From a virus, in IMG/VR virus record IMGVR_UViG_3300024346_000047, positions 1-64,000 of that record: a DNA stretch of 64,000 nt; one strand, 5' to 3'. Numbering within the stretch: position 1 is the stretch's first letter; each line of letters starts with the position of its first letter. Positions 36,595 through 60,468 of the stretch are shown here, one piece after another. The translations under genes and the position numbers were made by a program. The notes below the pieces were generated by a model. It did not search any database. It was not told where the DNA came from and saw only the letters and a program-made list of their open reading frames with translations.

Positions 36595-37857
36595 TTATTT
36601 ATAATTCTTAATATTAACTCTAAACGTACTTTTATATTCTTCTTTTTTAGCGTCCCAGAATTTTTTACTTAAGACTCTACCATTACTACCTTCATCTCCA
36701 AACTCTATCGTTGAGTCGTATCTAGTAGAAGATAGTAGCTTGTTTTTAATACCATCTTGCTCTGCTTTAAGATCTTTTATAGTATCATTGATAACTTTGT
36801 ATCTAACAGCTTTATCCCATTCATCTTGAGTACCTAACCTAGAAGCATCTTCTAAAGTCTCTTTATATCTAGATGTATACCATTCTTTATAAGATTCATT
36901 TGCTGAAGGTTCAGGTTCTAATTCGTAAATCTTACGATCGAGTTCTGAAATTAATAGTTTTAAATCTTCTCCTTGGTCTGAATTTTGTTGAGCTGATGAC
37001 ATTGAAGCTAATTTATCTTCTAATGGTTTTAACTCAGCGTAAATAGGTCGAGCCTCTTGTACACGTTTCCAAAAATCATAAGACTTAACAATTAAATCTT
37101 GACAAATATCAAAGTCCATTTCAAAAGGAGTAACCTTAGAATCAAACCCTCCCGTTAAACTAGCAATTTCCGCATAAGTAGTATTTGTAACTAGCATTTG
37201 TTGATGAAGCTGAAATACGTATCTGACTGGTATACCTCCGTTATATTTCTGAGCAGCAAAATAACTTATGTTCTTAACTTCTATGGAAAAGTCAAAGTTT
37301 ATAACTTCTCCTGTAAAGGGGCTTTTCTGACCTCCTAAGGCAAGATAATCTAAAGAAGCTGATAAGTGTGGATAATCTAAATTAATTGCGTAACAAGGTA
37401 TCTCTGCCTTTTGTCTTACTTTCTTACCTGAAGACCAAATCTCTGCCCATCCATCATCTGTACCATCGTTAAAATCCCATAAGTCAGCGATACCAGATTC
37501 AAAGTGAGAGCCTGCTGTCATAAACTTGGAATATACTTTAGGTGTACTCATTCCTATTTTTTCCCAAAACATCTTAACAGGGTCTCCATATTCATCATGG
37601 TCTGTTAATGTAGCTATACTGGAAGCTCCTATTGTATAATATCTAAATGTATACCAATCTTCATTATTAGCTCCTGATTTTGTAAACTGAGGAATAAAGA
37701 ATCCCCATACGCCTTCCTTAATAGGTTTAGCATATTTTTTGTATTCTTCTAAATGTGCGATTTCTGGTGGTAACTCGTAAGTTCCAATATCTTTTTTATT
37801 AAGATCGAAATCTAATGGTTTTAGCTTCTTCATAATATTGTTAAAAAATAGGGGCAT
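36595..37857 (-). CDS. YqaJ-type recombination exonuclease
   Basis: A 420-residue protein with the PD-(D/E)XK layout of the YqaJ/lambda-Exo family: GASSIATLTDHDEYG near residue 77, TAGSHFESGIADLW, ASLDYLAL (catalytic Asp), IEVKN (Glu-x-Lys), and a QLHQQM helix. A coiled-coil insertion spans about residues 270-350. It resects double-stranded ends so an annealing protein (candidate at 42863-43498) can pair strands. An internal ATG 24 bp downstream (KKLKPLDF) could be the true start because it has the better A/T-rich leader. Confidence 0.72.
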   Translation of the reverse strand: MPLFFNNIMKKLKPLDFDLNKKDIGTYELPPEIAHLEEYKKYAKPIKEGVWGFFIPQFTKSGANNEDWYTFRYYTIGASSIATLTDHDEYGDPVKMFWEKIGMSTPKVYSKFMTAGSHFESGIADLWDFNDGTDDGWAEIWSSGKKVRQKAEIPCYAINLDYPHLSASLDYLALGGQKSPFTGEVINFDFSIEVKNISYFAAQKYNGGIPVRYVFQLHQQMLVTNTTYAEIASLTGGFDSKVTPFEMDFDICQDLIVKSYDFWKRVQEARPIYAELKPLEDKLASMSSAQQNSDQGEDLKLLISELDRKIYELEPEPSANESYKEWYTSRYKETLEDASRLGTQDEWDKAVRYKVINDTIKDLKAEQDGIKNKLLSSTRYDSTIEFGDEGSNGRVLSKKFWDAKKEEYKSTFRVNIKNYK

Positions 37858-40695: not shown

Positions 40696-40808
40696 ATTTT
40701 CTAATTGTGCAATGATTAAAAAAGAGGCAATCTTAAGATTAACCTCCTTTAGTATTCTCCGACTGCTAATCTAAATCAAATAATTGTATATACAAAGATA
40801 AATTAGAA

Positions 40809-41114
40809 TTAAAATAATTTATCTGCTTCTTTTTTTAAAAAATCTAGTTCTGATACATCGATTTCTTCTTCCTTATTTAATTTATCTACCAACCCTGTCA
40901 TCAGGGCGCACATTTTTATATACTCAATAGAAAGGGTTCTTACTTCCTCTACGTATCTTAATCTAAACTCTGCGTTGGTTTTATACTTCTTGTATTCTGT
41001 AGGGTCTGTAGGAGTAAATGTGCTATTCTCTACAACTCCTAAAGTTTTAAGCTTTTTCTCTGTTTGGTCTACCAGGTAGTCAGATCCTTTCTTAATCTTT
41101 TTTAACGTGTTCAT
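40809..41114 (-). CDS. Uncharacterised helical protein
   Basis: A 101-residue charged helical protein between the helicase operon and the first attC-like repeat. A 113-bp gap to the helicase gene suggests the replication genes start a new unit there. No family is recognised. Confidence 0.5.
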   Translation of the reverse strand: MNTLKKIKKGSDYLVDQTEKKLKTLGVVENSTFTPTDPTEYKKYKTNAEFRLRYVEEVRTLSIEYIKMCALMTGLVDKLNKEEEIDVSELDFLKKEADKLF

Positions 41115-41144
41115 ATTTTATATTCGTTAAGTTGTGTTAAATTT

Positions 41145-41214
41145 CTAACAGTATTGTAACTGCCATTCTCGTACCTCGAACGTGCGCACAAGCGCAGTTA
41201 CAAGGGTGTTATAG
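41145..41214 (-). repeat. attC-like site 1 (identical to site at 47393)
   Basis: On the coding (minus) strand it runs CTATAAC - spacer - GTAACTGC - loop - GCAGTTAC - spacer - GTTAG. Outer boxes are complementary and inner arms pair, with unpaired bases in the longer arm, exactly the R''-L''-L'-R' layout of integron attC sites; 70 bp fits the attC length range. It is clearly richer in G+C than flanking DNA. All 70 bases are identical to 47393-47462. Confidence 0.75.
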
Positions 41215-41218
41215 CCAA

Positions 41219-41539
41219 TTAGCCTTGTTCGTAATCGCAACTTGTGAACTCATCTAAAATGGTATCATAAATAATTACATAATCAGCAGTAGTACTTCGG
41301 TTGCAACTTTCGTTTGCATCATTAAAATCGTAACCAAAAAAGAAAACTATTTTTTTAGTATCATAATCACATTCTTCAGGCATTATTTCAAAGTCCTTGT
41401 GTGCGTGTTGTTTAAATTGCAATATTCTTTCAAAGTGGTCTGCTTGTATTCTTTCTGCAATTAATATTTCTTCTTGTTCATTGTATAGGTCTAAAAATAG
41501 TTTCCCAAAATCAATGTAATTATTTATTTGTGCTTCCAT
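41219..41539 (-). CDS. Uncharacterised cassette gene
   Basis: A 106-residue acidic protein flanked by attC-like sites on both sides: its stop codon lies 4 bp before site 1, and site 2 lies 28 bp upstream of its start. This is the exact layout of an integron gene cassette (single gene, short leader, attC after the stop). The Cys-containing end (CNRST, CDYEQG) gives no family clue. Confidence 0.6.
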   Translation of the reverse strand: MEAQINNYIDFGKLFLDLYNEQEEILIAERIQADHFERILQFKQHAHKDFEIMPEECDYDTKKIVFFFGYDFNDANESCNRSTTADYVIIYDTILDEFTSCDYEQG

Positions 41540-41567
41540 AATGGTCTGCGTTTATTTAAATAACTGG

Positions 41568-41662
41568 CTATAACAACGTGTATAGTTAAAAAGCCAATTA
41601 AGGTTAGTAATTATTTTAAAGTTGGTTGCTATGGCTTTCAAACCATACACAAACCGTTATAA
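41568..41662 (-). repeat. attC-like site 2
   Basis: Minus strand: TTATAAC - GG - TTTGTGTATGG - internal arms GAAAGCCATAG - loop - then TATACAC - GTT - GTTATAG. Ends are complementary and the inner TGTGTATG / TATACAC arms pair imperfectly. The start TAACGGTTTG is shared with the sites at 48656, 48974 (variant), 57038 and 57448. The stop codon of the upstream gene lies inside its first box. Confidence 0.72.
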
Positions 41663-41809
41663 ATCATTTAAAATTTGTTTAGTAGTTGGCTTTTTCTGCT
41701 TTGAACAGTACTCCCTCTTATTACATACTGGGCACTTTTTTCCACCTTCAGCGATTTCGCAATCACAAGTAGTACACCAGTGTTGCTTGCGTTTATACTT
41801 CCCTTTCAT
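41657..41809 (-). CDS. 50-residue zinc-ribbon protein in a cassette
   Basis: Sequence begins MKGKYKRKQHWCTTCDCEI and continues EGGKKCPVCN; CxxC pairs at residues 12-15 and 26-29 form a rubredoxin-like zinc knuckle, with a basic tail. The TAA stop is formed by the TTATAAC box of attC-like site 2, a hallmark of cassette genes. Function unknown; small zinc ribbons in phages often bind nucleic acid or host proteins. Confidence 0.65.
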   Translation of the reverse strand: MKGKYKRKQHWCTTCDCEIAEGGKKCPVCNKREYCSKQKKPTTKQILNDL

Positions 41810-41888
41810 CTATTCAAATTTTAAACAATTCATAACATCAATTTAAAAACAATTAAAACAGTTTTAACTTGTAGCATTAGCATTAATA

Positions 41889-42107
41889 CTAAACTTTTAT
41901 TTTAAATAAATACTCTTGGGTATCATCCTTAAATATTTTCAATGTATATCCTCCTATTTTTATCTCTTTGGAAAAGTCACTCTCTTTGGATACATAAAAA
42001 GTATCGGTAATAAGTAGGTATAAATCTTTTCCTACAAAAACTTCTGCTTTTTTCTTATACTTTATCTTGTCTAATTCTTTTACAATAGATATTAATATCT
42101 CCTTCAT
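41889..42107 (-). CDS. Uncharacterised small protein
   Basis: A 72-residue Lys-rich protein with alternating strands (KKKAEVFVGKDLYLLITDT). It is followed by a degenerate palindromic stretch (AATGCTAATGCT), perhaps an eroded attC-like site. No family is recognised. Confidence 0.5.
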   Translation of the reverse strand: MKEILISIVKELDKIKYKKKAEVFVGKDLYLLITDTFYVSKESDFSKEIKIGGYTLKIFKDDTQEYLFKIKV

Positions 42108-42138
42108 TCTGTTTAGTTTTATTCATTAACAATCCGTA

Positions 42139-42194
42139 CTAATGCTAACTAGTATTAATAACAACTAACGCAGTTATTACACTTATCATTATAA
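42139..42194 (-). repeat. attC-like site 3 (variant ends)
   Basis: Minus strand: TAATGATAA - GTG - TAATAAC - loop TGCGTTA - GTTGTTATTA - ATACTAG - TTAGCATTA. Two nested inverted repeats with a mismatch, as in attC, but the outer box is TAATG rather than TATAAC. It follows the stop of the upstream gene by 14 bp. Confidence 0.5.
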
Positions 42195-42208
42195 ACAATT
42201 AAATATTA

Positions 42209-42388
42209 TTACGCTTTTCTGCATTTTGAGCAATTACATATAAACTTTCTAAATCTACCGCAACCCTTTGCGTATATATACCCTTCTTTTATTAACTCAT
42301 CATAATCCCCGTTAACCTTCCATTTTTCAAGTGTTTTAGGGTTGGTTATACGTAAAGTAACCACACAAGGCTTTTCCCATTGTTCCAT
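42209..42388 (-). CDS. 59-residue Cys-rich small protein
   Basis: Begins MEQWEKPCVVTLRIT; cysteines at 8, 43, 51, 53 and 56 (the last three as CNCSKC) suggest zinc binding. It starts 9 bp after the upstream gene stop and is followed by attC-like site 3. Not recognised. Confidence 0.6.
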   Translation of the reverse strand: MEQWEKPCVVTLRITNPKTLEKWKVNGDYDELIKEGYIYAKGCGRFRKFICNCSKCRKA

Positions 42389-42397
42389 AATATTTAA

Positions 42398-42580
42398 CTA
42401 CTTATAACAGGATATTATTTTATGAATAACAAACCCCTTCTCTGATTGTTTTTTGCGAAACTTACTATAAGCAGCCTCCTTTGTTCCTGCTTTTATCTTG
42501 TCTTTAAGCGTGTAGATTAAATACGGTACAGTTTGATTAGTTTTATCTTTAACAGATGCTTTAAATATAAATTCATACAT
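42398..42580 (-). CDS. Uncharacterised small protein
   Basis: A 60-residue basic protein (YEFIFKASVKDKTNQTVPYL) of beta-alpha appearance. It ends in GTTATAAGTAG, so an attC-like end word overlaps its last codons but no full palindrome is present. No family is recognised. Confidence 0.5.
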   Translation of the reverse strand: MYEFIFKASVKDKTNQTVPYLIYTLKDKIKAGTKEAAYSKFRKKQSEKGFVIHKIISCYK

Positions 42581-42610
42581 ATTCTAAAAGTTTATAACAC
42601 AGTATAAAAA

Positions 42611-42856
42611 CTATTGTATTTGCTTTTTACAATCCATACATTTATTATAGTCTAATTCTATTCTTGCTCTTTCGTGTCTTAATAGTTCACAATCACATTT
42701 TATAATATCATCTGAAACAACATTATTTTTAACGTGTTCAACAACTATATCAATCGCAACACCTATATCTCTAGGTTTTAACATTGGTTCTGAGTCTTCT
42801 CCTCTTCTCCATCTGTTGTGAGTTTCTAATATTCCGATTGCTTGTTTTATGTCCAT
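42611..42856 (-). CDS. Small phage protein with NRWRRG motif and C-terminal zinc knuckle
   Basis: An 81-residue protein whose first 45 residues (AIGILETHNRWRRGEDSE then IGVAIDIVVEHV) match a small family frequent in phages of several phyla, function unknown. The last 25 residues add CDCELL and CMDC, which look like a metal site. It is 6 bp downstream of the annealing-type protein gene. Confidence 0.6.
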   Translation of the reverse strand: MDIKQAIGILETHNRWRRGEDSEPMLKPRDIGVAIDIVVEHVKNNVVSDDIIKCDCELLRHERARIELDYNKCMDCKKQIQ

Positions 42857-42862
42857 AATTAA

Positions 42863-43498
42863 TTACTTACCTAAAACTTGTTTATTGATAAACTCTTTTA
42901 GTTCTGATGTCGCACAATTAGTCATAAAATCTGCTAAGTCAGGATACTTACCTTCAGGATCGTAATTCTTAAGCTTACCTACAAGAGTAATCCTAGTAAC
43001 ACCCATCTTTTTTAAAGACTCAGACATTTTCTTTAATCCGTCAACACTTCTATCGTCAGTTATAAAGTCTAAACTAATAGACTTTACTCCTTTCTTAGCT
43101 TTAGCTACAGTGTTAGCTCCTTTCTCTATGATTTCTTTCTTCTCTACTACTTTCTTTTTAGATTTAGCGTTAATTACTTCCTCTTCGGATGCAAAGTTAT
43201 TGGTGTTAGACACTCCTAGAGATTTTAATGCTCTACCTATAGACGAGGTTTCAGCGTTTTCTAACCAACTTGTTCCGTTTATAGTACCAAAACCTTCTCG
43301 TTCACTTGCGTGACCTGTAGCTACTGTTAAACCCTCTTGGTTTATTATTCTACACATAAAGTCTGCCTGGTATTTCTTCTCAGGGGTAAGTGTGTGAGAT
43401 AATAACTCTGTAATTATACTGTGATTTGGGTAGTCTCTTTTGAATATAATAATTCTTTCTGCTACTGTGTCGTAGTCTTTTAGTCCTTCTTTTTTCAT
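42863..43498 (-). CDS. Putative single-strand annealing / ssDNA-binding recombination protein
   Basis: A 211-residue protein with ATGHASEREGFGTIN and then WLENAETSSIGRALKSLGV (residues about 60-95). The ENAETSxIGRAL signature is widely found in phage proteins related to Erf/Rad52-type annealing or associated ssDNA-binding factors. A Lys-rich linker (residues 105-130) leads to a small C-terminal domain. It would pair with the YqaJ exonuclease encoded at 36595-37857. Confidence 0.6.
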   Translation of the reverse strand: MKKEGLKDYDTVAERIIIFKRDYPNHSIITELLSHTLTPEKKYQADFMCRIINQEGLTVATGHASEREGFGTINGTSWLENAETSSIGRALKSLGVSNTNNFASEEEVINAKSKKKVVEKKEIIEKGANTVAKAKKGVKSISLDFITDDRSVDGLKKMSESLKKMGVTRITLVGKLKNYDPEGKYPDLADFMTNCATSELKEFINKQVLGK

Positions 43499-43519
43499 TA
43501 TTTATGTTTAAATGTATTA

Positions 43520-43759
43520 TTAAAAATTATCCCAACACCAAATTGGCGTTTTATCACCAACATACGAACCGCTTACGTTATATGTAAAATGCTCCATAGA
43601 GTCTGTGTAACTCATTTCTAACATAAGAATATCTAAGCATTTAGAAACAGAGTATATTAACCTCATTTCTGTTTCGTCTACACCTATTATCGCATCGTCA
43701 AACCCATCAGCTTTTAAGAACTGTTCTTCATGGTAATGTTCGATTATATCGTTTATCAT
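43520..43759 (-). CDS. Conserved small phage protein (FLKADGFDDAIIGVD family)
   Basis: A 79-residue acidic protein with EEQFLKADGFDDAIIGVDE, then RLIYSVSKCLDIL and the end GDKTPIWCWDNF. These words recur in small proteins of many phages; function is unknown. Located 21 bp upstream of the annealing-type gene. Confidence 0.6.
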   Translation of the reverse strand: MINDIIEHYHEEQFLKADGFDDAIIGVDETEMRLIYSVSKCLDILMLEMSYTDSMEHFTYNVSGSYVGDKTPIWCWDNF

Positions 43760-43764
43760 TTAGT

Positions 43765-43842
43765 TTATTTACCTTTTAAATATATAGTATACAGTATTTC
43801 TGTAATCACCCATGTTACAAATATTAAAACAACAACATCCAT
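43765..43842 (-). CDS. 25-residue membrane peptide
   Basis: MDVVVLIFVTWVITEILYTIYLKGK, nearly all one hydrophobic helix, filling the gap between the regulator gene and the next one with 3-5 bp spacing on each side. Too short for a family call. Confidence 0.4.
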   Translation of the reverse strand: MDVVVLIFVTWVITEILYTIYLKGK

Positions 43843-43845
43843 AAG

Positions 43846-43983
43846 TTATATACGGTATTTTTCTTTAACTGAAATTCTTATTAATTCTGAAACTGAAACT
43901 GATTTTTTAGCAGCAATAATTTTTAGTTTATTAATAATTTCTTTTTCTACTCTGAATAAATATCTGGTATCTTTCTTAGCCAT
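43846..43983 (-). CDS. Ribbon-helix-helix (Arc/CopG-type) DNA-binding protein
   Basis: From the internal ATG at 43983 it is a 45-residue protein: TRYLFRVEKEIINKLKIIAA then SVSVSELIR, the strand-helix-helix pattern of Arc/CopG repressors with SVSELIR as second helix start. A longer frame from 44031 would overlap the upstream gene by 56 bp, so I prefer the 8-bp overlap start. Likely a local transcription regulator. Confidence 0.6.
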   Translation of the reverse strand: MAKKDTRYLFRVEKEIINKLKIIAAKKSVSVSELIRISVKEKYRI

Positions 43984-44341
43984 TTTGTAATTTTTTAACT
44001 TGTTCAGGAGTTGCCCTGTAAACATCTCCACTTTTTAGTTGTTTAATAAATGACCTTAAATCTAAAAGATCTTGTATTTCTAATGATGCCATTTCCGAGA
44101 ATATATCTTGATATACTTCTTGGATTCCAACAATTAAGTTTATGTCAGATTCTTTTTTACATAACTCATCCTCTACAGGAACTACTTTTTTCTCTAAAGC
44201 TTCAAAGAATCTATTGCCATGGAATTTAATTTCTTTAGACCATAAGGCTGTGTCTTTTAAATCTTCTACGTTTTCTAGTAATATTATACCATTACACATA
44301 AAAGATGTAGCTAACGACTTGTAATTATCTATTTTATTCAT
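43976..44341 (-). CDS. Uncharacterised helical protein
   Basis: A 121-residue helical, mildly acidic protein ending EQVKKLQNG. It overlaps the regulator gene by 8 bp, suggesting the two are translated together. No family is recognised. Confidence 0.5.
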   Translation of the reverse strand: MNKIDNYKSLATSFMCNGIILLENVEDLKDTALWSKEIKFHGNRFFEALEKKVVPVEDELCKKESDINLIVGIQEVYQDIFSEMASLEIQDLLDLRSFIKQLKSGDVYRATPEQVKKLQNG

Positions 44342-44358
44342 TTCTTTAAAATTAAGAA

Positions 44359-44526
44359 TTAATAACTACTACCATACCTATTCATACCGCCTAAATTAGG
44401 TGATGAAATTTTGTTTTCCATGACTGTACCGCATTTTGGACACTTCACTTCCGCTTGGTAGTTCTTTACTAATACGTCTTTTAATTCTTCTTTACATTTT
44501 GGGCATTTTTTATCAAAAAAAGGCAT
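44359..44526 (-). CDS. 55-residue zinc-ribbon protein
   Basis: Reads MPFFDKKCPKCKEELKDVLV and then VKCPKCGTVME: two CPxC knuckles (residues 8-11 and 29-32) as in FmdB-type or transcription-factor zinc ribbons. The start lies 3 bp after the stop of the upstream membrane protein. Function unknown. Confidence 0.65.
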   Translation of the reverse strand: MPFFDKKCPKCKEELKDVLVKNYQAEVKCPKCGTVMENKISSPNLGGMNRYGSSY

Positions 44527-44529
44527 TGG

Positions 44530-45135
44530 CTATAAGTATTTAATGTTAATAATAATATCATGAGGAGCGAAATCTTTACCTCCAAAATAAGGAAATAAAT
44601 TCACCCCAAAAAGGTATTTCTTTTCTGTAGTTAACTTTATAGATGACCTCACATTTATGTTAATAGACTGTATGTGGGATACGCTTCTTTTGCCTTTCTC
44701 GTATTCATAAAGAAATAAATCAATCTTATCAGAATAAGGATTATACTTCCAACCTATACGAGAACTGTTATAATGTATAAAAATAGAGCCGAAACCAAAT
44801 AATTTATTAATTTGTTCTGACAATTGAATACCACCATTGTATCTACAGCTATCATTAAATAAAACAGAAACTTTTTGTTCTTTTTTATTTATGAAAAACT
44901 TTAATCTATAACCCGAATAGTGATTACCTTTTTTAATTTTAAAATCTCCTGATCTTAATTTAAACATCCAAAACAAAAAAGGAGATAAAATCATTACTAA
45001 TACCGCAATAGAGAAAAACAATACAAAATACCATATTGTTATTTCTTCAAGTATTTCTGACGGTTTAATATAAGACAAAATTATAAACCCCATACCTATT
45101 GCTATTAAGGAGTATATTGCTATTGTTTTTTTCAT
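44530..45135 (-). CDS. Membrane protein with soluble C-terminal domain
   Basis: From the ATG at 45135 (KKTIAIYSLIAIG) it has 201 residues with two membrane helices (about 5-22 and 33-56) and a 140-residue soluble beta-rich domain. A longer frame from 45213 would overlap the small gene at 45191-45346, so the internal start is chosen. No family is recognised; a host-envelope role such as superinfection exclusion is possible but unproven. Confidence 0.55.
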   Translation of the reverse strand: MKKTIAIYSLIAIGMGFIILSYIKPSEILEEITIWYFVLFFSIAVLVMILSPFLFWMFKLRSGDFKIKKGNHYSGYRLKFFINKKEQKVSVLFNDSCRYNGGIQLSEQINKLFGFGSIFIHYNSSRIGWKYNPYSDKIDLFLYEYEKGKRSVSHIQSININVRSSIKLTTEKKYLFGVNLFPYFGGKDFAPHDIIINIKYL

Positions 45136-45190
45136 ATTTATTTTTTTTAGTAAATACAAACTTAAATATAATATTTGTATTGACAAAGTG

Positions 45191-45346
45191 TTAATTATAA
45201 TCTTCCATGTCATCTATTAGTTCATTTACTAAGATATCAAGCATAACCTCAATATTTACTGAATTAAAGCCGAATGATTCTCCATCGTAAAAAACTTCAA
45301 AAGTGACATAATTATTACCTAGTTCAAATTTAGATCTTTCTTCCAT
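45191..45346 (-). CDS. 51-residue acidic protein
   Basis: MEERSKFELGNNYVTFEVFYD start, strongly acidic end (LIDDMEDYN). It overlaps the upstream gene by 17 bp, in a different frame. No family is recognised. Confidence 0.5.
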   Translation of the reverse strand: MEERSKFELGNNYVTFEVFYDGESFGFNSVNIEVMLDILVNELIDDMEDYN

Positions 45347-45674
45347 TTATAGAATTTCCTTTTAATTTACGGATATTTTTGTTTACATTTTTAAGTTTTA
45401 ACAAATTATCGTCTGTTGGATTTTCTAAATGTACTGAACTATACTCTTCTAGTTTTTGTTTTAATTGTCTCATTTGCTCCTCCCTAGTTATAACGCAATT
45501 AAGATAGTCTCTTATCGCTTTTAAAGAACCTACTCCTGATAAAGAGAACTTCTTACCAGGAATAAGTCCTCTTCTGTCATAAGACTCCCCTATTAAGAAA
45601 GTAATTATATCGTAAGATTCGTTACAAGTTATAACTGCGTTTCCTTCTTCATCTAATATAAGTGTCCTATCCAT
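45330..45674 (-). CDS. Uncharacterised small protein
   Basis: A 114-residue protein: a short N-terminal beta part (RTLILDEEGNAVITCNE) and a long basic coiled coil (residues 65-105). It is 2 bp from the upstream HTH gene. Function not recognised. Confidence 0.5.
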   Translation of the reverse strand: MDRTLILDEEGNAVITCNESYDIITFLIGESYDRRGLIPGKKFSLSGVGSLKAIRDYLNCVITREEQMRQLKQKLEEYSSVHLENPTDDNLLKLKNVNKNIRKLKGNSINGRKI

Positions 45675-45676
45675 AG

Positions 45677-45841
45677 TTATTTATTATAAGCCTTAATATA
45701 CCACTCGCCTTTTAGTTTTCTTCTCTTAAGAACCCCCCCTTGAGCTTGTCTTTTTACTGTTGATAATTTCTTACCGAAAACTTCAGCGTAATCTTCTATA
45801 GGATAGTAAATCCCATCTGGGAACGTAACTCTATCTAGCAT
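45677..45841 (-). CDS. Excisionase-like helix-turn-helix protein
   Basis: 54 residues: FPDGIYYPIEDYAEVFGKKL then STVKRQAQGGVLKRRKLKGE and WYI. This is the winged HTH of MerR/Xis-type small DNA-binding proteins (helix, TVKR recognition helix, KRRKLKGEWYI wing). The start overlaps the last codons of the upstream gene. It may regulate transcription or assist a recombinase such as the serine recombinase at 51307. Confidence 0.6.
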   Translation of the reverse strand: MLDRVTFPDGIYYPIEDYAEVFGKKLSTVKRQAQGGVLKRRKLKGEWYIKAYNK

Positions 45842-46709
45842 ATTTTTGTTCTTTTCTTTTTTCTTGACTTAATGATATTTTACCATACAATTCAGGTGAT
45901 AACTTCATAACCGCCACCTTTAAGCTATATACATCTAAGTATTCAAAAAACATATTATTTAGAGCAGACCATGTTACCCCTCCTTCTATAACTTTGTCTA
46001 TAGTTTCTTTATCCTGATTATAAACCTTACTAGCTAAAGATGACCTGTGCCTTTTAACCATACTATACATATTAGGGTGTGATTTTTTTAATCTATACTT
46101 AAAAGAATCACAATTAGAATATTGAAAGTATTTATCATTTAAATCAGAGTATGAAAAACCTGATGATATATCATCCATCATTTCCTCTATGTTTTTATCA
46201 ATTTTACTATCAAATCTTGTTTTAACTTGTTGAGATTTACTAACTATTAATACATCTTTTACTTTAATACTACTTAAATCTTCTCCTGTTATTTTTTCTT
46301 TTATTTCTAAAAAATGATTGGTAAGCGATTTACCATTTAACATTCTAGAATCCATCATGTGTAATCCAGATACATAGCCTCTTAAATAGTGTAGGTAAGT
46401 GGTTCTATGTTTTTTAGTTAACTGTAAAGCTTTTGTAAAGTAAATAGAGTTTTTTGGGTTTTTGCTTTGATCTATAACTAAATAAAAAAACACAACCATT
46501 GGAATTATATCTTCTGACTTTTTTGACCTTGGGATAAGAGTGTTTATTTCAAAATAATCCATTACTGAATTACTTATCAAATGTATTAATGGGTCTTGCT
46601 GAAGAGATAATATCTTTGCTTTTTTTAAATCATAACCTTGTTTTAAAAAGTTAACTATAGAGTCTAAATCTTTATCTGAGTAAATTTTTTCTTTGATTTG
46701 TTTTTTCAT
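45831..46709 (-). CDS. Uncharacterised DNA-binding-like protein (possible initiator-type)
   Basis: A 292-residue basic helical protein. Residues 70-115 (MVVFFYLVIDQSKNP, LTKKHRTTYLHYLRGY) recall the C-terminal HTH of DnaA-type initiators, and the second half holds two similar blocks (SYSDLNDKYFQYSNCDSFKYRLKK and TWSALNNMFFEYLDVYSLKV, residues about 190-215 and 246-270) that look like tandem HTH repeats. Function in replication or regulation is inferred only. Confidence 0.5.
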   Translation of the reverse strand: MKKQIKEKIYSDKDLDSIVNFLKQGYDLKKAKILSLQQDPLIHLISNSVMDYFEINTLIPRSKKSEDIIPMVVFFYLVIDQSKNPKNSIYFTKALQLTKKHRTTYLHYLRGYVSGLHMMDSRMLNGKSLTNHFLEIKEKITGEDLSSIKVKDVLIVSKSQQVKTRFDSKIDKNIEEMMDDISSGFSYSDLNDKYFQYSNCDSFKYRLKKSHPNMYSMVKRHRSSLASKVYNQDKETIDKVIEGGVTWSALNNMFFEYLDVYSLKVAVMKLSPELYGKISLSQEKRKEQKYAR

Positions 46710-47350
46710 TTTGTATTGGCTAATATGTTTTCAGTTCTTACTGCTATATAATCTACTTTTTCTATTTTAATAGTGTAGATTGCTTGCTCTCTTACGGCAA
46801 ATGTGTCACCTGGTGCGTATCCTTCTTTAATAAGCTGTCTAGATAAGTGCGTAGACTGTAATATATCCTCTCTCTTCTTTTGTTTTAAATGTTCGGGTAT
46901 AATTATCGTAGAACTTTGATGAATCTGCTCAACAGGCTTAAAAAGATTCCAATCAAAAGTTGGTATTATTTCTCCATCTACAATCTGACATATAATATTA
47001 GAAGTAATAGATCCAACCATATCTCTAGGATAAGAAAGGTGGTATTCATCCTCTCCAGCTAATCTATCTTCGTTAACTGCTAAGTGATGTAAGTAAACCG
47101 TACATCCTTCTATTAATTCATCTAATGTCATACCAGCTTTGGTTGCTTTTCTACCTAAAGCTAATGGTTTTTGTATAAGTTTACCTTTAAAAGGAATATA
47201 CTCATCACCTTCAGGAATATAATCTTTATCTAATCTGTTGTAGATATTACCTAAATCTAAAGTTTTAATTCCATCTGCTGTTTTTATTTCAGTTGTAAGG
47301 TTTTGATCTTTTTTAATCTCTACCCTCATAAAGTCTTTTATGTATTTCAT
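46706..47350 (-). CDS. Possible GroES-like co-chaperonin
   Basis: A 214-residue protein. The C-terminal part reads GYAPGDTFAVREQAIYTIKI, then KVDYIAVRTENILA, very close to the GroES ending pattern (GD-V-----IEIDGKEY-ILRE-DILA). The first half has a weaker copy (GCTVYLHHLAVNEDRL, YPRDMVGSI), so it may be a tandem or expanded GroES fold of the phage gp31 type, helping the host GroEL fold capsid protein. It overlaps the next gene by 4 bp. The identification is by eye and uncertain. Confidence 0.42.
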   Translation of the reverse strand: MKYIKDFMRVEIKKDQNLTTEIKTADGIKTLDLGNIYNRLDKDYIPEGDEYIPFKGKLIQKPLALGRKATKAGMTLDELIEGCTVYLHHLAVNEDRLAGEDEYHLSYPRDMVGSITSNIICQIVDGEIIPTFDWNLFKPVEQIHQSSTIIIPEHLKQKKREDILQSTHLSRQLIKEGYAPGDTFAVREQAIYTIKIEKVDYIAVRTENILANTK

Positions 47351-47392
47351 TTTTTTTTATTTTATATATTTTATGGGTCTTAATTAAATTTT

Positions 47393-47462
47393 CTAACAGT
47401 ATTGTAACTGCCATTCTCGTACCTCGAACGTGCGCACAAGCGCAGTTACAAGGGTGTTATAG
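47393..47462 (-). repeat. attC-like site 4 (identical to site 1)
   Basis: Base-for-base identical to 41145-41214 over 70 bp and in the same orientation. It begins 4 bp after the stop codon of the small gene at 47467, again the cassette layout. Confidence 0.75.
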
Positions 47463-47466: not shown

Positions 47467-47640
47467 TTATTCCTCTCTTTGGTAATCGTCAACTTTTAAA
47501 CTTAAATCACTTCCCTTTTTAATTTGCTTTAGTATCGTTGTAATTTCATAAAGAAGCTCTTGCCCTTTATCTGTTAGCTCGTTATTCCTATTTAAAAAGC
47601 TTAACCTTTCTTTTTCACTTTCTAATCTTTTATACTTCAT
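47467..47640 (-). CDS. 57-residue charged protein, last gene of a two-gene cassette
   Basis: MKYKRLESEKERLSFLNRNN start; Lys/Glu-rich helical throughout. Its stop is 4 bp before attC-like site 4, and its start is 3 bp after the upstream gene. No family is recognised. Confidence 0.6.
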   Translation of the reverse strand: MKYKRLESEKERLSFLNRNNELTDKGQELLYEITTILKQIKKGSDLSLKVDDYQREE

Positions 47641-47643: not shown

Positions 47644-47922
47644 TTAAAGTTTATTAATCCAGTCTTTAACTGTTTTAATTAATGTATTTACAAATGGTTT
47701 TTCTGTTGGTATTCCATAATCTCGTTCTGGGTAATCCATAACATCAAGACTTAAATCATCTATTAGATTAAATATTTCATCATCTGGTATCTGTTTAAGC
47801 TTTGCTTGGTGGTATTTACACATAGCTTCCGCTATACTTGGATGGTTACGGACTAACATGCCTGTGCAATCGTAAAGTATCTGGTCTAACAGTGGCGCTT
47901 CATAAAATTCTTTATCTCTCAT
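47644..47922 (-). CDS. Uncharacterised cassette protein
   Basis: A 92-residue acidic helical protein (EFYEAPLLDQILYDCTGMLV). It precedes the 57-residue gene with a 3-bp gap, so a two-gene cassette bounded by attC-like sites at 47393 and 47991 is suggested. No family is recognised. Confidence 0.55.
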   Translation of the reverse strand: MRDKEFYEAPLLDQILYDCTGMLVRNHPSIAEAMCKYHQAKLKQIPDDEIFNLIDDLSLDVMDYPERDYGIPTEKPFVNTLIKTVKDWINKL

Positions 47923-47990: not shown

Positions 47991-48040
47991 CTATAACACA
48001 AAAGTAAAAAGCAATAAACAGCTTTTACTTTACTCGTTAT
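47991..48040 (-). repeat. attC-like site 5
   Basis: Minus strand: CATAAC - GAGTAAA - GTAAAAGC - TGTTTATT - GCTTTTTAC - TTTTGT - GTTATAG. Inner arms pair with one extra base on one side; outer boxes are complementary. Compact form of about 50 bp. The stop codon of the methyltransferase gene falls inside the first box. Confidence 0.72.
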
Positions 48041-48624
48041 GTACAATGTTCACTTAAATTTTCGCATATTAAATCATTCGGCAAGAAGTCTACACAGAAA
48101 TATGAACTACTAAACGTAATTTTATTGTTTGGTTTTCCGTAAGGATTATTAAACTTTATCCTTTTATCAAACATTAGTAATTGCATTTGTTTATTTGCTT
48201 CCATAAAAACTTTTTTTGAGTAAGCGTCATTCAACCACGCATTAGTCATTATTAAAGCAAAAGGTTTATTAAAACTTAACGCTCTTTCAAAGAATTGTCG
48301 CTTCCCTTTAAATGGTGGGTTACTTACTATGCAATCCCAATCTTCTTTAGGCTCATAATCAAAAAAGTTTTGCCCAGTGCTTATATGAGAATGTATTACT
48401 TTATTAGTCTTACTTATCATTTTAACAAATGCAGAATCAGCTTCGTCAAAAGGACACCAAACAACAAAATTACTTGGTATGTATTTTAAAATAGGCTTTA
48501 CACCATATTTAGGAGTATATGCTTCATCGTTTCCTGTTTTATTATAAAGTATTTTTTGGCTATCAATTTGTTTGTTTTGCCTCATTACGTTATTGTACAT
48601 TTGTTGGGTTCTGTCTTCATTCAT
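48037..48624 (-). CDS. DNA adenine methyltransferase-like protein (cassette-borne)
   Basis: A 195-residue protein with DEAYTPKYGVKPILKYIP, then VVWCPFDEADSAFV (motif I-like) and DCIVSNPPFKGKRQF (catalytic NPPF, motif IV). These match small phage N6-adenine methyltransferases that modify phage DNA, for instance against restriction. The TAA stop lies in the first box of attC-like site 5, and site 6 lies 31 bp upstream of the start, so the gene is a clean single-gene cassette. Confidence 0.68.
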   Translation of the reverse strand: MNEDRTQQMYNNVMRQNKQIDSQKILYNKTGNDEAYTPKYGVKPILKYIPSNFVVWCPFDEADSAFVKMISKTNKVIHSHISTGQNFFDYEPKEDWDCIVSNPPFKGKRQFFERALSFNKPFALIMTNAWLNDAYSKKVFMEANKQMQLLMFDKRIKFNNPYGKPNNKITFSSSYFCVDFLPNDLICENLSEHCT

Positions 48625-48655: not shown

Positions 48656-48784
48656 CATAACAACATGTATAATCCATTGCTATTTTCTGCTTTTTCAAAG
48701 GCTTGTTATTATTAATTTATTTAGTTTTTAATCCGATAATTTCTGTCTGTTAAAACGCAACATATCATACACAAACCGTTAGCA
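48656..48784 (-). repeat. attC-like site 6 (long form)
   Basis: Minus strand: TGCTAAC - GG - TTTGTGTATGATATG - about 75-nt loop - GGATTATACATG - TT - GTTATG. Length 129 bp, like the long Vibrio-type attC sites. Outer and inner arms are complementary with mismatches. Confidence 0.68.
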
Positions 48785-48973: not shown

Positions 48974-49105
48974 TGCTAACAAAGTATATAAGTAATGGCT
49001 AAAGCATACCTAAGAGCTGAACCTTCGGGTCTTTCGGGGTTACTCGTTTGTATGCGGTACTGTTAACCCTTATTCCCGCCACTACTTATATACAAACCAT
49101 TATGC
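48974..49105 (-). repeat. attC-like site 7 (long form)
   Basis: Minus strand: GCATAAT - GG - TTTGTATATAAGTAGTGGC - GC-richer loop - GCCATTACTTATATAC - TTT - GTTAGCA. The inner arms pair over about 15 bp with one mismatch, the clearest stem of the series. Total 132 bp. Confidence 0.75.
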
Positions 49106-49118
49106 GTAACTATATTTT

Positions 49119-49437: not shown

Positions 49438-49662
49438 TTAATGGTAACTTACTTTTTGTAAATTTTCTGAATCTCTTAAAAGGATATCGTATTCTTTTTT
49501 ACTTATAGTTATATCGGTACTACAACCAACATCGGTTAAAGTTAATGCTTTACTTCTTATTTTATGAATAGCATCAGTTATAAGTATTTTATCTTTGTTG
49601 TTTAATTCCGTAGCATCAAGCATATTCATTGCTTTATTAGCTAATTGTATTATTTCGTCCAT
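49438..49662 (-). CDS. Uncharacterised helical protein
   Basis: A 74-residue protein (MDEIIQLANKAMNMLDATEL), helical with a C-terminal KKEYDILLRDSENL coil. It has no attC-like site of its own at its 3' end. No family is recognised. Confidence 0.5.
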   Translation of the reverse strand: MDEIIQLANKAMNMLDATELNNKDKILITDAIHKIRSKALTLTDVGCSTDITISKKEYDILLRDSENLQKVSYH

Positions 49663-49694
49663 TTTTATTAAATTTATTTATTATTAAATCAGCA

Positions 49695-49720
49695 CTAACC
49701 TTAACCGCAATACGTTATAA
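49695..49720 (-). repeat. Partial attC-like remnant
   Basis: Minus strand: TTATAAC - GTATTGCGG - TTAAG - GTTAGTGC. Only the outer boxes remain, about 26 bp apart, and the stop codon of the gene at 49715 lies in the first box. Probably an eroded site. Confidence 0.3.
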
Positions 49721-50075: not shown

Positions 50076-50372
50076 TTATAGGCACATACCAAGTACCTTC
50101 TTAATCAAACTTTCTGCGTGTTTTAATGCTTCTGCGTATAATTCTAATTCCTTTTCATCTGAACACCGCAGCATTCTAACTGCAAGTTCTTTTTTGTATT
50201 CCAATATGTGCTGTAAACTATCGGTTGTCTTTTCAATATCCATAAATGCTGCTATGTGCAAATCATTAAATGGCTCTATTCTAATCGTTGCCTTTTCAGC
50301 AGATTCAGCAGTACGTGCCATAACATTTTGTATAGCACGTTGCTGTAGTGTTTTTAATCTTATATCATACAT
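50076..50372 (-). CDS. Uncharacterised helical protein
   Basis: A 98-residue helical protein (LKTLQQRAIQNVMARTAESA; YKKELAVRMLRCSDEKEL). Its stop lies in CTATAATG, and a short AATGTTA / GTTATTA repeat follows, perhaps a small attC-like remnant. Not recognised. Confidence 0.55.
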   Translation of the reverse strand: MYDIRLKTLQQRAIQNVMARTAESAEKATIRIEPFNDLHIAAFMDIEKTTDSLQHILEYKKELAVRMLRCSDEKELELYAEALKHAESLIKKVLGMCL

Positions 50373-50400
50373 AATTCAAAGTTTTGTGTTATCAATTTAA

Positions 50401-50672: not shown

Positions 50673-51059
50673 CTACTGCACATTTAGGATTAAACAACCT
50701 TTAATATCAGGAGGAGTAAAAGAATTAGGTTTAGATATTTTACCATTACTATCCTTTACTACTTTACCATTGTGTAGCTTACTCATATTAGATCGGTGTA
50801 TCTCGTCCATAATACGCTCTAAGCTATCACCATCTAAACCATGTTTGTACGCTGTCCCTATAACTAAATAAAGCATATCACCGATAGCATCTGCTATTTC
50901 TATAGGGTCTTTATCTATACAAGCTAATCTGTATTCATCTATCTCCTCTTGTATCATATCAAACTCTAGTTCGTATTCGGTTATACATCCAAATGTGTCC
51001 CTTTTAGATATATTAAAACAGTTGTTAAACTCTTTTCTTTGATTAAACAACTTTTTCAT
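50673..51059 (-). CDS. MazG/PRA-PH-type NTP pyrophosphohydrolase
   Basis: A 128-residue all-alpha protein with metal motif EEIDEY, then EIADAIGDMLYLVIG, and the later SNMSKL...GKISKP block typical of phosphoribosyl-ATP pyrophosphohydrolase-like NTPases. It hydrolyses NTPs or alarmone-like nucleotides; phage members can blunt stress signalling or clean the nucleotide pool. The last codons read through a CTAAATGTGCA motif, so its C-terminus appears extended into that motif. Confidence 0.72.
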   Translation of the reverse strand: MKKLFNQRKEFNNCFNISKRDTFGCITEYELEFDMIQEEIDEYRLACIDKDPIEIADAIGDMLYLVIGTAYKHGLDGDSLERIMDEIHRSNMSKLHNGKVVKDSNGKISKPNSFTPPDIKGCLILNVQ

Positions 51060-51186: not shown

Positions 51187-51332
51187 TTTTCTAAATGTGT
51201 TATGTTTATTTTTATCCATTCCTTAATACACGATTCACAACAGGTAAACTTTTTTTCAGGCTTACCACATATCTCACATTTACCAGGGAATAAGCTTAAT
51301 TGTCTTTTATAAGAATTGTTCGTAGATTTCAT
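51183..51332 (-). CDS. 49-residue zinc-finger protein
   Basis: MKSTNNSYKRQLSLFPGKCE, CEIC, then CCESC: a four-cysteine knuckle with a basic N-terminus. It overlaps the serine recombinase gene end by 26 bp in another frame and the next start by 4 bp. Possibly a recombinase accessory protein, by position only. Confidence 0.6.
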   Translation of the reverse strand: MKSTNNSYKRQLSLFPGKCEICGKPEKKFTCCESCIKEWIKINITHLEK

Positions 51333-51981
51333 CGTTGTAAATCCTATGTACTTTTGATACGTTCATCTTAACAACTCTAGCTATGGTTCTAAAGGATGTT
51401 TGAAGCTCAGAATCGTTATCCTTCATTCTGTATATTTGCTTAACTACTTCCATTTCTTTTAGATTAGGTATTAAGTCTTTATCTTTTCTTGTAAATCCGT
51501 AAGGAGTCTTACCTGAGTAAACCTTAAGGTTTTGTTTTCTGTGTTGTAATGATTTTTTTACTCTATCTCTAATTGTGTGACGCTCTAACTCTGCAAAAGC
51601 TAACATCATAGTCACCATCATTCTTCCTAAAGGCGTAGATGAGTCTAAAGTTTCACCTGACATATCAATCACTGAGAAATCTATATTGTTAGCGTTAAAG
51701 TCGTTTAAAACAGTTAACCCATCCACTACTGATCTAGTCATTCTGTCTAATTTGTAAACAACAATGTTATCTATTTCTTTATTGTCTAAACATTTTTTTA
51801 AGCGTGAACCTGCTGGTCTATCGAACAATCTAACACCTCCTGATACATTAGAGTCTATGAAAACATCAACTACTTCGTAACCTTTCATATTGCAATAAGT
51901 AAGGCATTTTTCAGACTGCATTAATTCTGAGTTTTCCTGATTACCAGTTGAAACTCTTATATATATAGCCGTTTTTTTCAT
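51307..51981 (-). CDS. Serine recombinase (resolvase/invertase family)
   Basis: A 224-residue protein with the catalytic Ser11 in AIYIRVSTG, the DNVVVYKLDRMTRS-type segment (YKLDRMTR near residue 77), the LGRMMVTMMLAFAELER helix E and a C-terminal HTH (FRTIARVVKMNVSKVHRIY). All features of an active small serine recombinase are present. It would invert, resolve or integrate DNA at short dyad sites. It is the only recombinase of its kind in the window and lies inside the cassette region, but attC sites are normally used by tyrosine integrases, so a link is not implied. Confidence 0.88.
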   Translation of the reverse strand: MKKTAIYIRVSTGNQENSELMQSEKCLTYCNMKGYEVVDVFIDSNVSGGVRLFDRPAGSRLKKCLDNKEIDNIVVYKLDRMTRSVVDGLTVLNDFNANNIDFSVIDMSGETLDSSTPLGRMMVTMMLAFAELERHTIRDRVKKSLQHRKQNLKVYSGKTPYGFTRKDKDLIPNLKEMEVVKQIYRMKDNDSELQTSFRTIARVVKMNVSKVHRIYNDEIYEQFL

Positions 51982-52052: not shown

Positions 52053-52106
52053 CATAACGTTCTATAATAGCAATCCTACGGACAGCCTATTATTTCAACG
52101 TTATAA
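52053..52106 (-). repeat. attC-like site 9
   Basis: Minus strand: TTATAAC - GTTGA - AATAATAG - loop - GCTATTATAG - AAC - GTTATG. Inner arms AATAATAG / CTATTAT pair; outer boxes are complementary. Length 54 bp. It lies 72 bp upstream of the serine recombinase start, and the stop of the next gene lies in its first box. Confidence 0.72.
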
Positions 52107-56746: not shown

Positions 56747-56992
56747 TTATGTAAGATTTAAAAGTTTTTCTTCATCAGTATAATAAGAGAACATTTCCAT
56801 CCAAGTATCAGACACATTACTATAAATTAAAAAATTAACCTGAACCATAGCATCAGGATTAATTGAGGATATTAAATCCCCTATTTCTTTTATTTTATAT
56901 TTAGCAACTGCATCTCCGTATTCAACGTCAATTGTTGTTCTTACTGATTTTTTACCACTTTCTTTTACTCTGATTTCTATTGATTTTTGCAT
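56747..56992 (-). CDS. 81-residue acidic protein
   Basis: MQKSIEIRVKESGKKSVRTT, beta-hairpin N-terminus, helical acidic end. Its start is preceded by leader repeat 1 (56993-57029). No family is recognised. Confidence 0.52.
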   Translation of the reverse strand: MQKSIEIRVKESGKKSVRTTIDVEYGDAVAKYKIKEIGDLISSINPDAMVQVNFLIYSNVSDTWMEMFSYYTDEEKLLNLT

Positions 56993-57029
56993 GATTTTAC
57001 ACCTATTTCTAGGATTTTATTTAGGGTTT
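56993..57029 (-). repeat. Leader repeat 1, copy 1
   Basis: Minus strand: CCCTAAATAAAATCC, then TAGAAATAGGTGTAAAATC right before the ATG at 56992. Contains the CCTA-GAAA-TAGG mini-hairpin with a GNRA-type loop. Six copies exist between 56.9 and 61.0 kb. Confidence 0.85.
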
Positions 57030-57037
57030 AATAAAAA

Positions 57038-57106
57038 GCATATAACGCTACCTATATGCAAAACTCCTTTACTCTACGTTCAGCACATAGCCAAACCGTT
57101 ATATGC
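57038..57106 (-). repeat. attC-like site 12
   Basis: Minus strand: GCATATAAC - GGTTTG - GCTATGTGC - loop TGAACGTAGAGTAAAGG - GCATATAGGTAGC - GTTATATGC. Outer nine-base ends GCATATAAC / GTTATATGC are perfectly complementary, and the inner arms TATGTGC / GCATATA pair imperfectly. 69 bp, the typical attC length. The loop and ends are shared with site 13. Confidence 0.8.
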
Positions 57107-57447: not shown

Positions 57448-57510
57448 GCATATAACACTAGCTATATGCCATACTCGTTCCTCGTTCAGCACATAGCCAA
57501 ACCGTTAGTA
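57448..57510 (-). repeat. attC-like site 13
   Basis: Minus strand: ACTAAC - GGTTTG - GCTATGTGC - loop TGAACGAGGAACGAGTATG - GCATATAGCTAGT - GTTATATGC. It shares about two thirds of its bases with site 12. The stop codon of the 48-residue gene is inside its first box. Confidence 0.78.
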
Positions 57511-57651
57511 AATATATTCCCATTCACCAATATTATAAGCTTCATTTATAATATATTCGTCACTTATATTATTATGTGGATCTACACCTCTATCTCTTAG
57601 AGATTTAATCATTTTTTCAAAAGTTGTAATATTTCCTAAATATTTTATCAT
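57505..57651 (-). CDS. 48-residue cassette protein
   Basis: MIKYLGNITTFEKMIKSLRD start; acidic. The TAA stop is formed in the CTAAC box of attC-like site 13, and leader repeat 1 (copy 2) precedes its start. No family is recognised. Confidence 0.6.
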   Translation of the reverse strand: MIKYLGNITTFEKMIKSLRDRGVDPHNNISDEYIINEAYNIGEWEYIY

Positions 57652-57688
57652 AATTTTACACCTATTTCTAGGATTTTATTTAGTGTTT
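57652..57688 (-). repeat. Leader repeat 1, copy 2
   Basis: Same element as at 56993, with ACTAAATAAAATCC instead of CCTAAATAAAATCC. The stop codon of the pseudogene falls in its 5' end. Confidence 0.85.
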
Positions 57689-58000
57689 AATTGTTATTAA
57701 ATTTCCGTTCCATTCTTTATCGTTTAGATACCAAACTCCTTTCCGTTGGGATATTTGTACACCATTAAGTCCGTTTAATCTTTCTTTTGTAGTGTTACTT
57801 TTCCATCCAGCGTTGGTAATCTTTAAAACTTTCTTACGTTTGGTTTTATGTATTTCTGCAATTTTGTTGTCGTGTAAGTAAAGCTCTGCCTATACTGGTA
57901 ATCCTTTTTCAGTACCTAGTATTTTTACTTTCATGTTGCTTTTATTAAAAGGTGTTAAACTTTCAAAAGCTTTGATTTATTCTTCTGTAATTTTTCTCAT
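57680..58000 (-). pseudogene. Interrupted gene: two in-frame nonsense codons
   Basis: A continuous 106-codon frame, MRKITEE-stop-IKAFESLTPF...KGLPV-stop-AELYLHDNKI, ending NGNLITIKH. The stops are TAA at 57977-57979 and TAG at 57890-57892. The reading resumes with sensible protein, TTKERLNGLNGV and QRKGVWYLNDKEWNG, a pattern I know from Bacteroidota phage and host hypothetical proteins. Replacing each stop by Gln restores a normal protein, and each differs by one C-to-T change. Either a recent pseudogene or a gene read through by suppression. Confidence 0.65.
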
Positions 58001-59460: not shown

Positions 59461-59646
59461 TTACTTAATGTGATAGGTTTCGTTATAATCTTTATACTTT
59501 TCATCTCTTAAGTACTGGTTAATTGCTTTCTTAATTTTAGAGATGTTTTTACCGTAAAAACTAGGATTAGCATAAGCTGAAGCTAGGTATTCATTTTTAT
59601 TTAAATTTATACCAAAACCTTTATACGTTTGATATTCTACTTTCAT
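59461..59646 (-). CDS. 61-residue small protein
   Basis: MKVEYQTYKGFGINLNKNEY; the YKGFGI and short helical AINQYLRDEK resemble a small mixed alpha/beta domain. No family is recognised. Confidence 0.5.
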   Translation of the reverse strand: MKVEYQTYKGFGINLNKNEYLASAYANPSFYGKNISKIKKAINQYLRDEKYKDYNETYHIK

Positions 59647-59658: not shown

Positions 59659-59859
59659 TTATATTATATTTCCGTCTTCGTCTATTTTATTTCCATCATA
59701 ATCTCTTACACCGTTTCTAAAATCATTAAATTCGTTGATTAATTGAATTGGTGTCTTGTTATCGTTAAGAGATTCATTGCGATAATTTGACCAATTTGCA
59801 AGTGATCGTATAAATTCTATTCCTTCAAGATTTTTTTTGTATTGACTAACTTTTTTCAT
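59659..59859 (-). CDS. 66-residue small protein
   Basis: MKKVSQYKKNLEGIEFIRSL; helical, Asn/Asp-rich end. Preceded by leader repeat 1 (copy 3). No family is recognised. Confidence 0.5.
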   Translation of the reverse strand: MKKVSQYKKNLEGIEFIRSLANWSNYRNESLNDNKTPIQLINEFNDFRNGVRDYDGNKIDEDGNII

Positions 59860-59894
59860 AATCTTACACCTATTTCTAGGATTTTATTTAGGGT
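59860..59894 (-). repeat. Leader repeat 1, copy 3
   Basis: CCTAAATAAAATCC, TAGAAATAGGTGTAAGATT, then the ATG at 59859. Directly preceded (5' side) by TACTAAATGTGCAA. Confidence 0.85.
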
Positions 59895-59907
59895 TGCACA
59901 TTTAGTA

Positions 59908-60432
59908 TTAGGCTCTCATTACCATATTAAGAGGTATGTCATAACCATTAGGGTCAATAATAGGTTCAGATTCCTTGTATCCTTCTTCATCAGGCTCTGA
60001 GTCTTCATCTATTATGTATTCTATTTCTAGCCAATCACTTATTCTAGGGTTATCACTTCCCCATGCGTCTCTTACTCTTGCTGAGTCTCCGCAATCACTT
60101 AGTTCTATTTCGTAACCTCCTGTATTTGAAATAGTATATCCGCCATGAACCTTAAAACTTTTGTGTTTTTCGTATTCATTAATAGCAAGTTCTAAACATT
60201 CATTAAAGTTTTCTACATTTTCTTGAAACTTTTTTATTTTTAAGTCTTTGCTATTTGTTAGGTCGAATATGTATTGATTCCAGTCACCAGTTATTTCAAG
60301 TTCATCAAACATAGTTTCTGCATGGTTTCTGTCTTCCCATACGTCAAACCATATTTTTAGATTGTTTTCTGTCTCTATTTGTACGCTTGAAACTATTCCA
60401 GCGGTTTCTAATTCTATTTTAATTACTTTCAT
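59908..60432 (-). CDS. 174-residue acidic protein
   Basis: MKVIKIELETAGIVSSVQIE; the centre GGYTISNTGGYEIELSDCGD has strand and turn rhythm, and residues near 120-160 are acidic. It is preceded by leader repeat 1 (copy 4). No family is recognised; possibly an early host-interaction protein. Confidence 0.52.
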   Translation of the reverse strand: MKVIKIELETAGIVSSVQIETENNLKIWFDVWEDRNHAETMFDELEITGDWNQYIFDLTNSKDLKIKKFQENVENFNECLELAINEYEKHKSFKVHGGYTISNTGGYEIELSDCGDSARVRDAWGSDNPRISDWLEIEYIIDEDSEPDEEGYKESEPIIDPNGYDIPLNMVMRA

Positions 60433-60468
60433 AATTTTACACCTATTTCTAGGATTTTATTTAGGGTT
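60433..60468 (-). repeat. Leader repeat 1, copy 4
   Basis: Identical core to copies 1, 2, 5 and 6, ending directly at the ATG at 60432. Confidence 0.88.

Follow-up and report, generated by a model that had tools for sequence, protein, structure and literature searches.

Clusters of attC sites lacking integron integrases (CALINs) are carried by phages (Qi et al. 2023, PMC9892861), and those of Polaribacter phage P12002L in particular are the closest known kind to the sites described here. One of two attC sites tested from P12002L was recombined by the integron integrase IntI1 in E. coli (PMC9892861). In sedentary chromosomal integrons with uniform attC sites, for example those of Vibrio, near-identical sites stand on unrelated genes, with gene and attC in the same sense (PMC8618304); complete integrons are reported to be rare in Bacteroidetes (PMC9024848). 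The promoter-stem-loop cassettes (PeSLs) of T4-type phages pair an early promoter with a stem-loop terminator and have been proposed to mediate gene shuffling (Arbiol et al. 2010, as cited in PMC4503421). Here we analyse positions 1 to 64,000 (the window) of IMG/VR virus record IMGVR_UViG_3300024346_000047, a tailed phage by its terminase and portal genes, and an identical 73-nt pair of attC-like sites within it, copies A and B. The pair is probably a single attC-type site present twice, within a dispersed, integrase-free and CALIN-like set of cassettes; the set lies in the early region of this tailed phage, which has relatives among flavobacterial phages. The best reading of its identity, judged on sequence, would be reuse of an attC site and not necessarily recent duplication.

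A CALIN consists of at least two nearby attC sites in one sense, with genes between them and no integron integrase, and the window fits this description with attC-like sites that are mostly in gene sense. As in the phage CALINs, the sites lie between small genes of a lytic phage, with DNA methyltransferase cargo (positions 48037-48624 are methyltransferase-like). The window shares a loop motif with P12002L, one site of which (30008-30056) is 94% identical to a site (8124-8171) in a related 71-kb phage record, G010 (IMGVR_UViG_3300033388_003553); from its place between methyltransferase genes, this P12002L site may be one of those tested with IntI1. Unlike the phage CALINs detailed in PMC9892861, which have few sites, the window has at least 10 and G010 about 28, and sites are reused near-verbatim behind unrelated genes and within one genome. 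That reuse resembles sedentary chromosomal integrons, from which the present set differs in having no integrase found and no attI seen (no search aimed at attI was made), in being scattered among phage genes, and in that its m/l sites (see below) were found only in virus records and two phage-like contigs of metagenome-assembled genomes (MAGs). Like PeSLs as summarised in the citing paper, the sites are hairpin modules between genes that recur within a phage and are common to several phages; unlike the PeSLs summarised there, they have the R/L boxes of integron sites, and no promoter was found with them.

The identical pair and its attC-like features

A first-pass annotation had reported 70 identical bases at 41145-41214 and 47393-47462 in the same orientation. 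The identity in fact extends to 73 nt (41142-41214 and 47390-47462), with 96% identity over 83 nt. The two are direct repeats, 6248 bp apart from start to start, and a whole-record search showed them to be the sole two copies in all 68,404 bp; a 73-nt exact repeat in 68 kb cannot arise by chance. Their higher GC content, also remarked on earlier, is 47%, compared with 28-30% for the 500 bp that flank them and 32% for the window as a whole. The copies and the cassettes that they close are as follows.

41142-41214, minus strand: copy A, in sense TAAC-ACCCT-TGTAACTGC...GCAGTTACA-ATACT-GTTA, with loop CGTTCGAGGTACGAGAATG
47390-47462, minus strand: copy B, identical to copy A, 6248 bp away in the same orientation
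41219-41539, minus strand: cassette gene A, 106 amino acids, no known family, directly 5' of copy A
47467-47640, minus strand: cassette gene B, 57 amino acids, directly 5' of copy B
47644-47922, minus strand: second open reading frame (ORF) of the copy-B cassette, 92 amino acids

On the gene strand (minus), both copies read TAAC-ACCCT-TGTAACTGC-GCTTGTGCGCACGTTCGAGGTACGAGAATG-GCAGTTACA-ATACT-GTTA, with attC-like R'' and R' ends and L arms. The boxes follow the order R''-L''...L'-R', with TAAC...GTTA ends and 10-bp L arms TTGTAACTGC/GCAGTTACAA; one bulge lies deep on the L'' side. Each copy sits on the gene strand a few nucleotides past a stop codon, just 3' of a gene, and carries the loop motif CGT..GAGGTACGA..ATG, as do attC-like sites of flavobacterial phages. 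The hairpin is more stable than dinucleotide shuffles (z of -3.2 on the plus strand and -2.2 on the gene-sense minus strand), and no T-run directly follows it. The family loop motif, the arrangement of the R/L boxes and the placement of each copy behind a gene and in its sense support the label "attC-like" given in the first-pass annotation.

Copies A and B were the top matches of a pairing-based attC scan, with about 0.1-0.3 matches expected per shuffled genome at that score. In a covariance model seeded with 13 attC-like sites, one from the window (site k, below) and the others from phage records, both copies scored 16.0 bits on the minus strand (E = 0.22 in 64 kb), a weak match, and 11.6 bits in antisense. 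They rank just below the clear attC sites, the next non-attC match having E = 1.1, and this is supportive but weak evidence that they are a divergent member of the attC-like family. The model found 53 sites in 527 kb of relatives, among which the seed sites match by construction, and had no match in the regions that surround two integron integrases of Vibrio.

In a strict scan of 13 phage records, intergenic attC-like matches fell in gene sense 75 times and in antisense 9 times (binomial p = 4e-14), while matches in coding DNA were nearer to strand balance. An early permissive scan gave mostly chance matches inside genes and was replaced by the stricter ones. Divergent sites retain all four boxes (R'', L'', L' and R'), asymmetric spacers and their AAC/GTT ends, and show paired changes in the L arm; the pair counts are inflated, because the sites had been chosen by pairing. 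The loop motif GAGG(A/T/C)ACGA, often followed by ATG, occurs in phage records G010, G012, G013 and G018, in MAG phage contigs, in P12002L and in the 73-nt pair; the fuller form CGT..GAGG(A/T)ACGA..ATG is common to several phage and MAG records, including the isolated phage P12002L.

Reuse of sites in the window and in related phages

Besides copies A and B, the window has at least eight further attC-like sites, giving at least ten at 41.1-57.5 kb, mostly in gene sense.

41571-41659, minus strand: site b, attC-like, upstream boundary of cassette A; a homologous site is at the same place in viral contig L005
47994-48039, minus strand: site e, attC-like, upstream boundary of cassette B; 22.5 bits, E = 0.0036
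48658-48781, minus strand: site f, attC-like
48977-49107, minus strand: site g, attC-like; 95% identical over 117 nt to a G010 site, with paired changes in the arm
52055-52103, minus strand: site i, attC-like, within a 70-nt stretch identical in contig L028
52679-52731, minus strand: site k, attC-like, near-identical in flavobacterial MAG phage contig L016; a model seed, so that its score is by construction
57043-57101, minus strand: site l, attC-like, m/l family
57453-57507, minus strand: site m, attC-like, m/l family; its core recurs without change in six stretches of IMG/VR and in two MAG contigs

The covariance model gave E values of 1.6e-13 to 0.004 for sites m, l and e. The observation that every other site differs from the pair holds, but sites l and m are themselves about 88% alike and form a second repeated site pair in the window.

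The m/l family illustrates the reuse. The core of site m is found exactly in six IMG/VR stretches and in two flavobacterial MAG contigs that are phage-like (holin and PHROG matches), and an arms-only m/l pattern was found in 15 IMG/VR stretches. Among the 18 sites compared, after removal of one duplicate, pairwise identity upstream of R'' is 0.26-0.31, a background level; on the downstream side, the first two blocks of ten have values of 0.86 and 0.80, which drop to 0.35 by the next gene. Conservation as far as AAC follows from the search pattern, which ended there, but the collapse just beyond does not. No two of these sites have related neighbour genes, except for one gene that lies between the two window sites. 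Among all collected sites, 0 of the 83 pairs that are at least 80% alike share an upstream gene, 64 of these pairs being m/l sites of different records. The claim of reuse therefore rests on flanks outside the m/l pattern and on pairs of sites that were collected in other ways.

Repeats within one genome were also observed elsewhere. G010 has two m-type sites as direct repeats 31 kb apart. Its approximately 28 attC-like intergenic sites were called by the covariance model, with six of them seeds. They are spread over 0.7-17.4 kb and 65.8-71.1 kb, and almost all have the orientation of the genes. In P12002L (L024), a 77-nt module that starts at TAAC and extends near the next gene's start is present twice (29172-29248 and 37198-37274), 97% identical, 8 kb apart and in the same orientation. 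Record G017 has four copies of an intergenic module (50290-50394, 50933-51034, 59477-59557 and 61486-61587), three of which start TAACA(A/G)GGTATATCAG; the module contains an intrinsic-terminator-like hairpin, GATTTGCTTGCAATTGCGAGCAAATCTTTTT. With the repeated modules of G010 and P12002L and the site reuse, the 73-nt pair becomes one case of a common pattern.

The pair itself was found only in the present phage, at the search stringencies applied. IMG/VR, searched with exact and with arms-only or degenerate patterns, gave no match to the 73-nt site, and a search of plasmids did not find it. Searches of genomes also gave nothing: the 46-nt core had no exact match in the 84,980 GTDB species genomes, and the 397 genomes of one family held no real match, the weak matches that were opened being without an attC look. 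Close relatives of the phage, sought in IMG/VR by its primase-helicase, were not found; tblastn gave distant relatives only, mainly in Cellulophaga and Arthrobacter phages, and the protein is most like those of Cellulophaga phages.

Cassette gene A has a 90% amino acid relative, with the same leader and upstream site type, in L005, an independent 7-kb viral contig. The DNA of cassette A is 91% identical there over 396 bp, and the likeness stops at R'' of copy A. L005 was considered as a test of the crossover point and set aside, since its downstream site has collapsed to CTATAAC-ATA-GTTATAAC and does not discriminate. A 74% relative of gene A is encoded by Cellulophaga phage Nekkels_1 (gp12) without an attC. 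Gene A therefore occurs both with and without a site of the type of copies A and B. A search for a phage relative of cassette gene B (57 amino acids) found none.

Several other features of the region were recorded. A small gene and its leader at 49438-49720 have 84% DNA identity to P12002L 40753-40952 and are a probable shared cassette. An intergenic leader, TTTTACACCTATTTCTAGGATTTTATTTAGGGTT, occurs in six copies shortly before start codons on the minus strand (56974-57032, 57633-57691, 59841-59905, 60414-60478, 60691-60755 and 60974-61038) and is perhaps a promoter or translation signal, and a TGCACATTTAGA / GTGCAACATTGCACATTTA motif is repeated between many small genes at 58.2-63.8 kb. Outside the region, a tandem 57-bp repeat lies inside a 2589-amino-acid ORF (22968-23252).

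Recombination enzymes and the origin of the pair

Integron integrase (TIGR02249) was not found in this record or in seven related records searched, and tyrosine recombinase (PF00589, E of at most 0.01) was not found in this record or in 15 others with such sites or cassette A. At the chosen limit, 0 of 199 genomes in the family of one MAG with a related phage contig had an integron integrase; two Vibrio genomes, as a positive control, gave 460 and 386 bits. TIGR02249 fragments in MAGs were rejected as a host integrase because they fell well below the cut-off. The recombination genes and the GroES-like protein are listed below.

36595-37857, minus strand: RecE-like exonuclease (phrog_434)
42863-43498, minus strand: putative single-strand annealing protein, best relative annotated mgM101-like; inside the 6.2-kb interval
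46706-47350, minus strand: GroES-like protein (weak match to phrog_13932), immediately downstream of copy B
51307-51981, minus strand: serine recombinase with resolvase domain (E = 8e-35), adjoining attC-like site i

With this serine recombinase and no tyrosine recombinase found, the record does not hold a complete integron (intI plus attI). The names "annealing protein" and "GroES-like", used in the first-pass annotation, are only moderately supported. A RecE-like nuclease together with an Mgm101-like protein could in principle allow homologous exchange by annealing at short repeats.

We suggest that each copy of the 73-nt site would close a different small cassette, copy A that of gene A and copy B that of its two ORFs, and that the copies match because this phage group may draw on a limited stock of attC sites, kept nearly unchanged behind unrelated genes. 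The sites might have been placed, once or at times, by an integron integrase supplied in trans by some host or a co-infecting element, after which annealing-type homologous recombination between phages could shuffle genes at the shared hairpins and keep the sites alike. Several observations weigh against this account. Under the family model the copies reach no more than 16 bits (E = 0.22), and their spacers are symmetric, whereas the R'' side is the longer one in family members. Gene A in L005 diverges from the window at R'' and not at R'. The m/l sites stay conserved beyond the G^TT crossover and into the leader that follows; a pure cassette model has no need of this. Finally, the phage, the related records and the 199 host-family genomes yielded no integrase, which leaves integron-type movement without an enzyme.

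These last points bring in a possible, less probable account, in which the sites are mobile regulatory hairpins, each a hairpin plus the next gene's leader, shuffled by homologous recombination in the manner of PeSLs, with the likeness to attC partly convergent or a relic. The conserved m/l unit, which begins at R'', spans the hairpin and R' and reaches the leader near the next ATG, fits this, as do the modules of P12002L and G017, which start at TAAC and run to an ATG (one with an intrinsic-terminator-like hairpin), and the RecE-like and Mgm101-like genes in the phage. So do the searches that found no tyrosine recombinase in 16 records and no IntI in 199 family genomes, the positive control for the latter having worked. 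However, the R/L boxes, asymmetric spacers and AAC/GTT ends are retained with paired L-arm changes (in sites chosen by pairing), no promoter motif was identified, and a P12002L site was recombined by IntI1 (PMC9892861).

Recent duplication within the phage lineage, with the second copy made by gene conversion or annealing and no wider pattern implied, overlaps with our preferred explanation and is about as probable as the regulatory-hairpin account. It is favoured by the 73 nt being found nowhere else in IMG/VR, GTDB species genomes or the 397 family genomes. However, the flanks outside the two copies are unrelated apart from short AT-rich stretches, and sibling sites are about equally conserved across distant phages. 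Zero differences in 73 nt bound the divergence only at about 4%, and given that conservation of sibling sites the identity is no clock. Of the two origins proposed in the first-pass annotation, a shared source is plausible, whereas near-identical attC sites behind unrelated genes in related phages mean that recent duplication is not required. It is also conceivable, if rather doubtful, that the phage group carries and spreads its own integrase-free stock of attC-like modules, which phage recombination would place almost letter for letter behind new genes, so that cassettes would be made in phages and not in bacterial integrons.

The first-pass annotation had also proposed that recombination between the repeats would excise a 6248-bp circle (41.2-47.4 kb); such excision, by integrase or annealing, would make the segment switchable. 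The direct-repeat geometry is real and annealing-type recombination genes are present, so the geometric part of the proposal stands. Integrase-driven excision is unsupported, no integrase having been found in this record or the related records searched. The interval also holds putative recombination and chaperonin-like genes, seemingly not dispensable, and further attC sites lie between and beside the pair. A switchable segment is accordingly very improbable. In recombination between attC sites it is the fold that is recognised and not the sequence, so the identity of the pair would give an integrase no preference and would favour only homologous deletion. It is not evidence of active excision; annealing-type deletion of the 6.2 kb is possible, judging from the repeat and the gene content. 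An assembly artefact, with a short repeat created or copied at a contig join, is very improbable: the record appears metagenome-assembled, has an imperfect direct repeat at its ends, and 73 nt is near assembler k-mer sizes, but both copies join intact genes at each end with distinct flanks, and cassette A with its left border recurs in the independent contig L005. The end repeat (64 nt at 1-64 and 68341-68404, 95% identical) possibly reflects a circular genome with a sequencing difference.

Implications for how cassettes form

Taken by itself the pair is of modest weight; what merits following is that these phages, without an integrase, reuse attC sites behind unrelated genes. Such reuse carries a caution that identical attC copies are not to be taken as recent duplications. 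It has long been asked how a gene acquires its attC site and thereby turns into a cassette. The attachment of one site family to 18 different genes, with an abrupt break at R'' and no integrase found in the records, offers natural junctions at which the birth of cassettes could be studied, and makes phages a candidate reservoir of cassettes and a shuttle for them.

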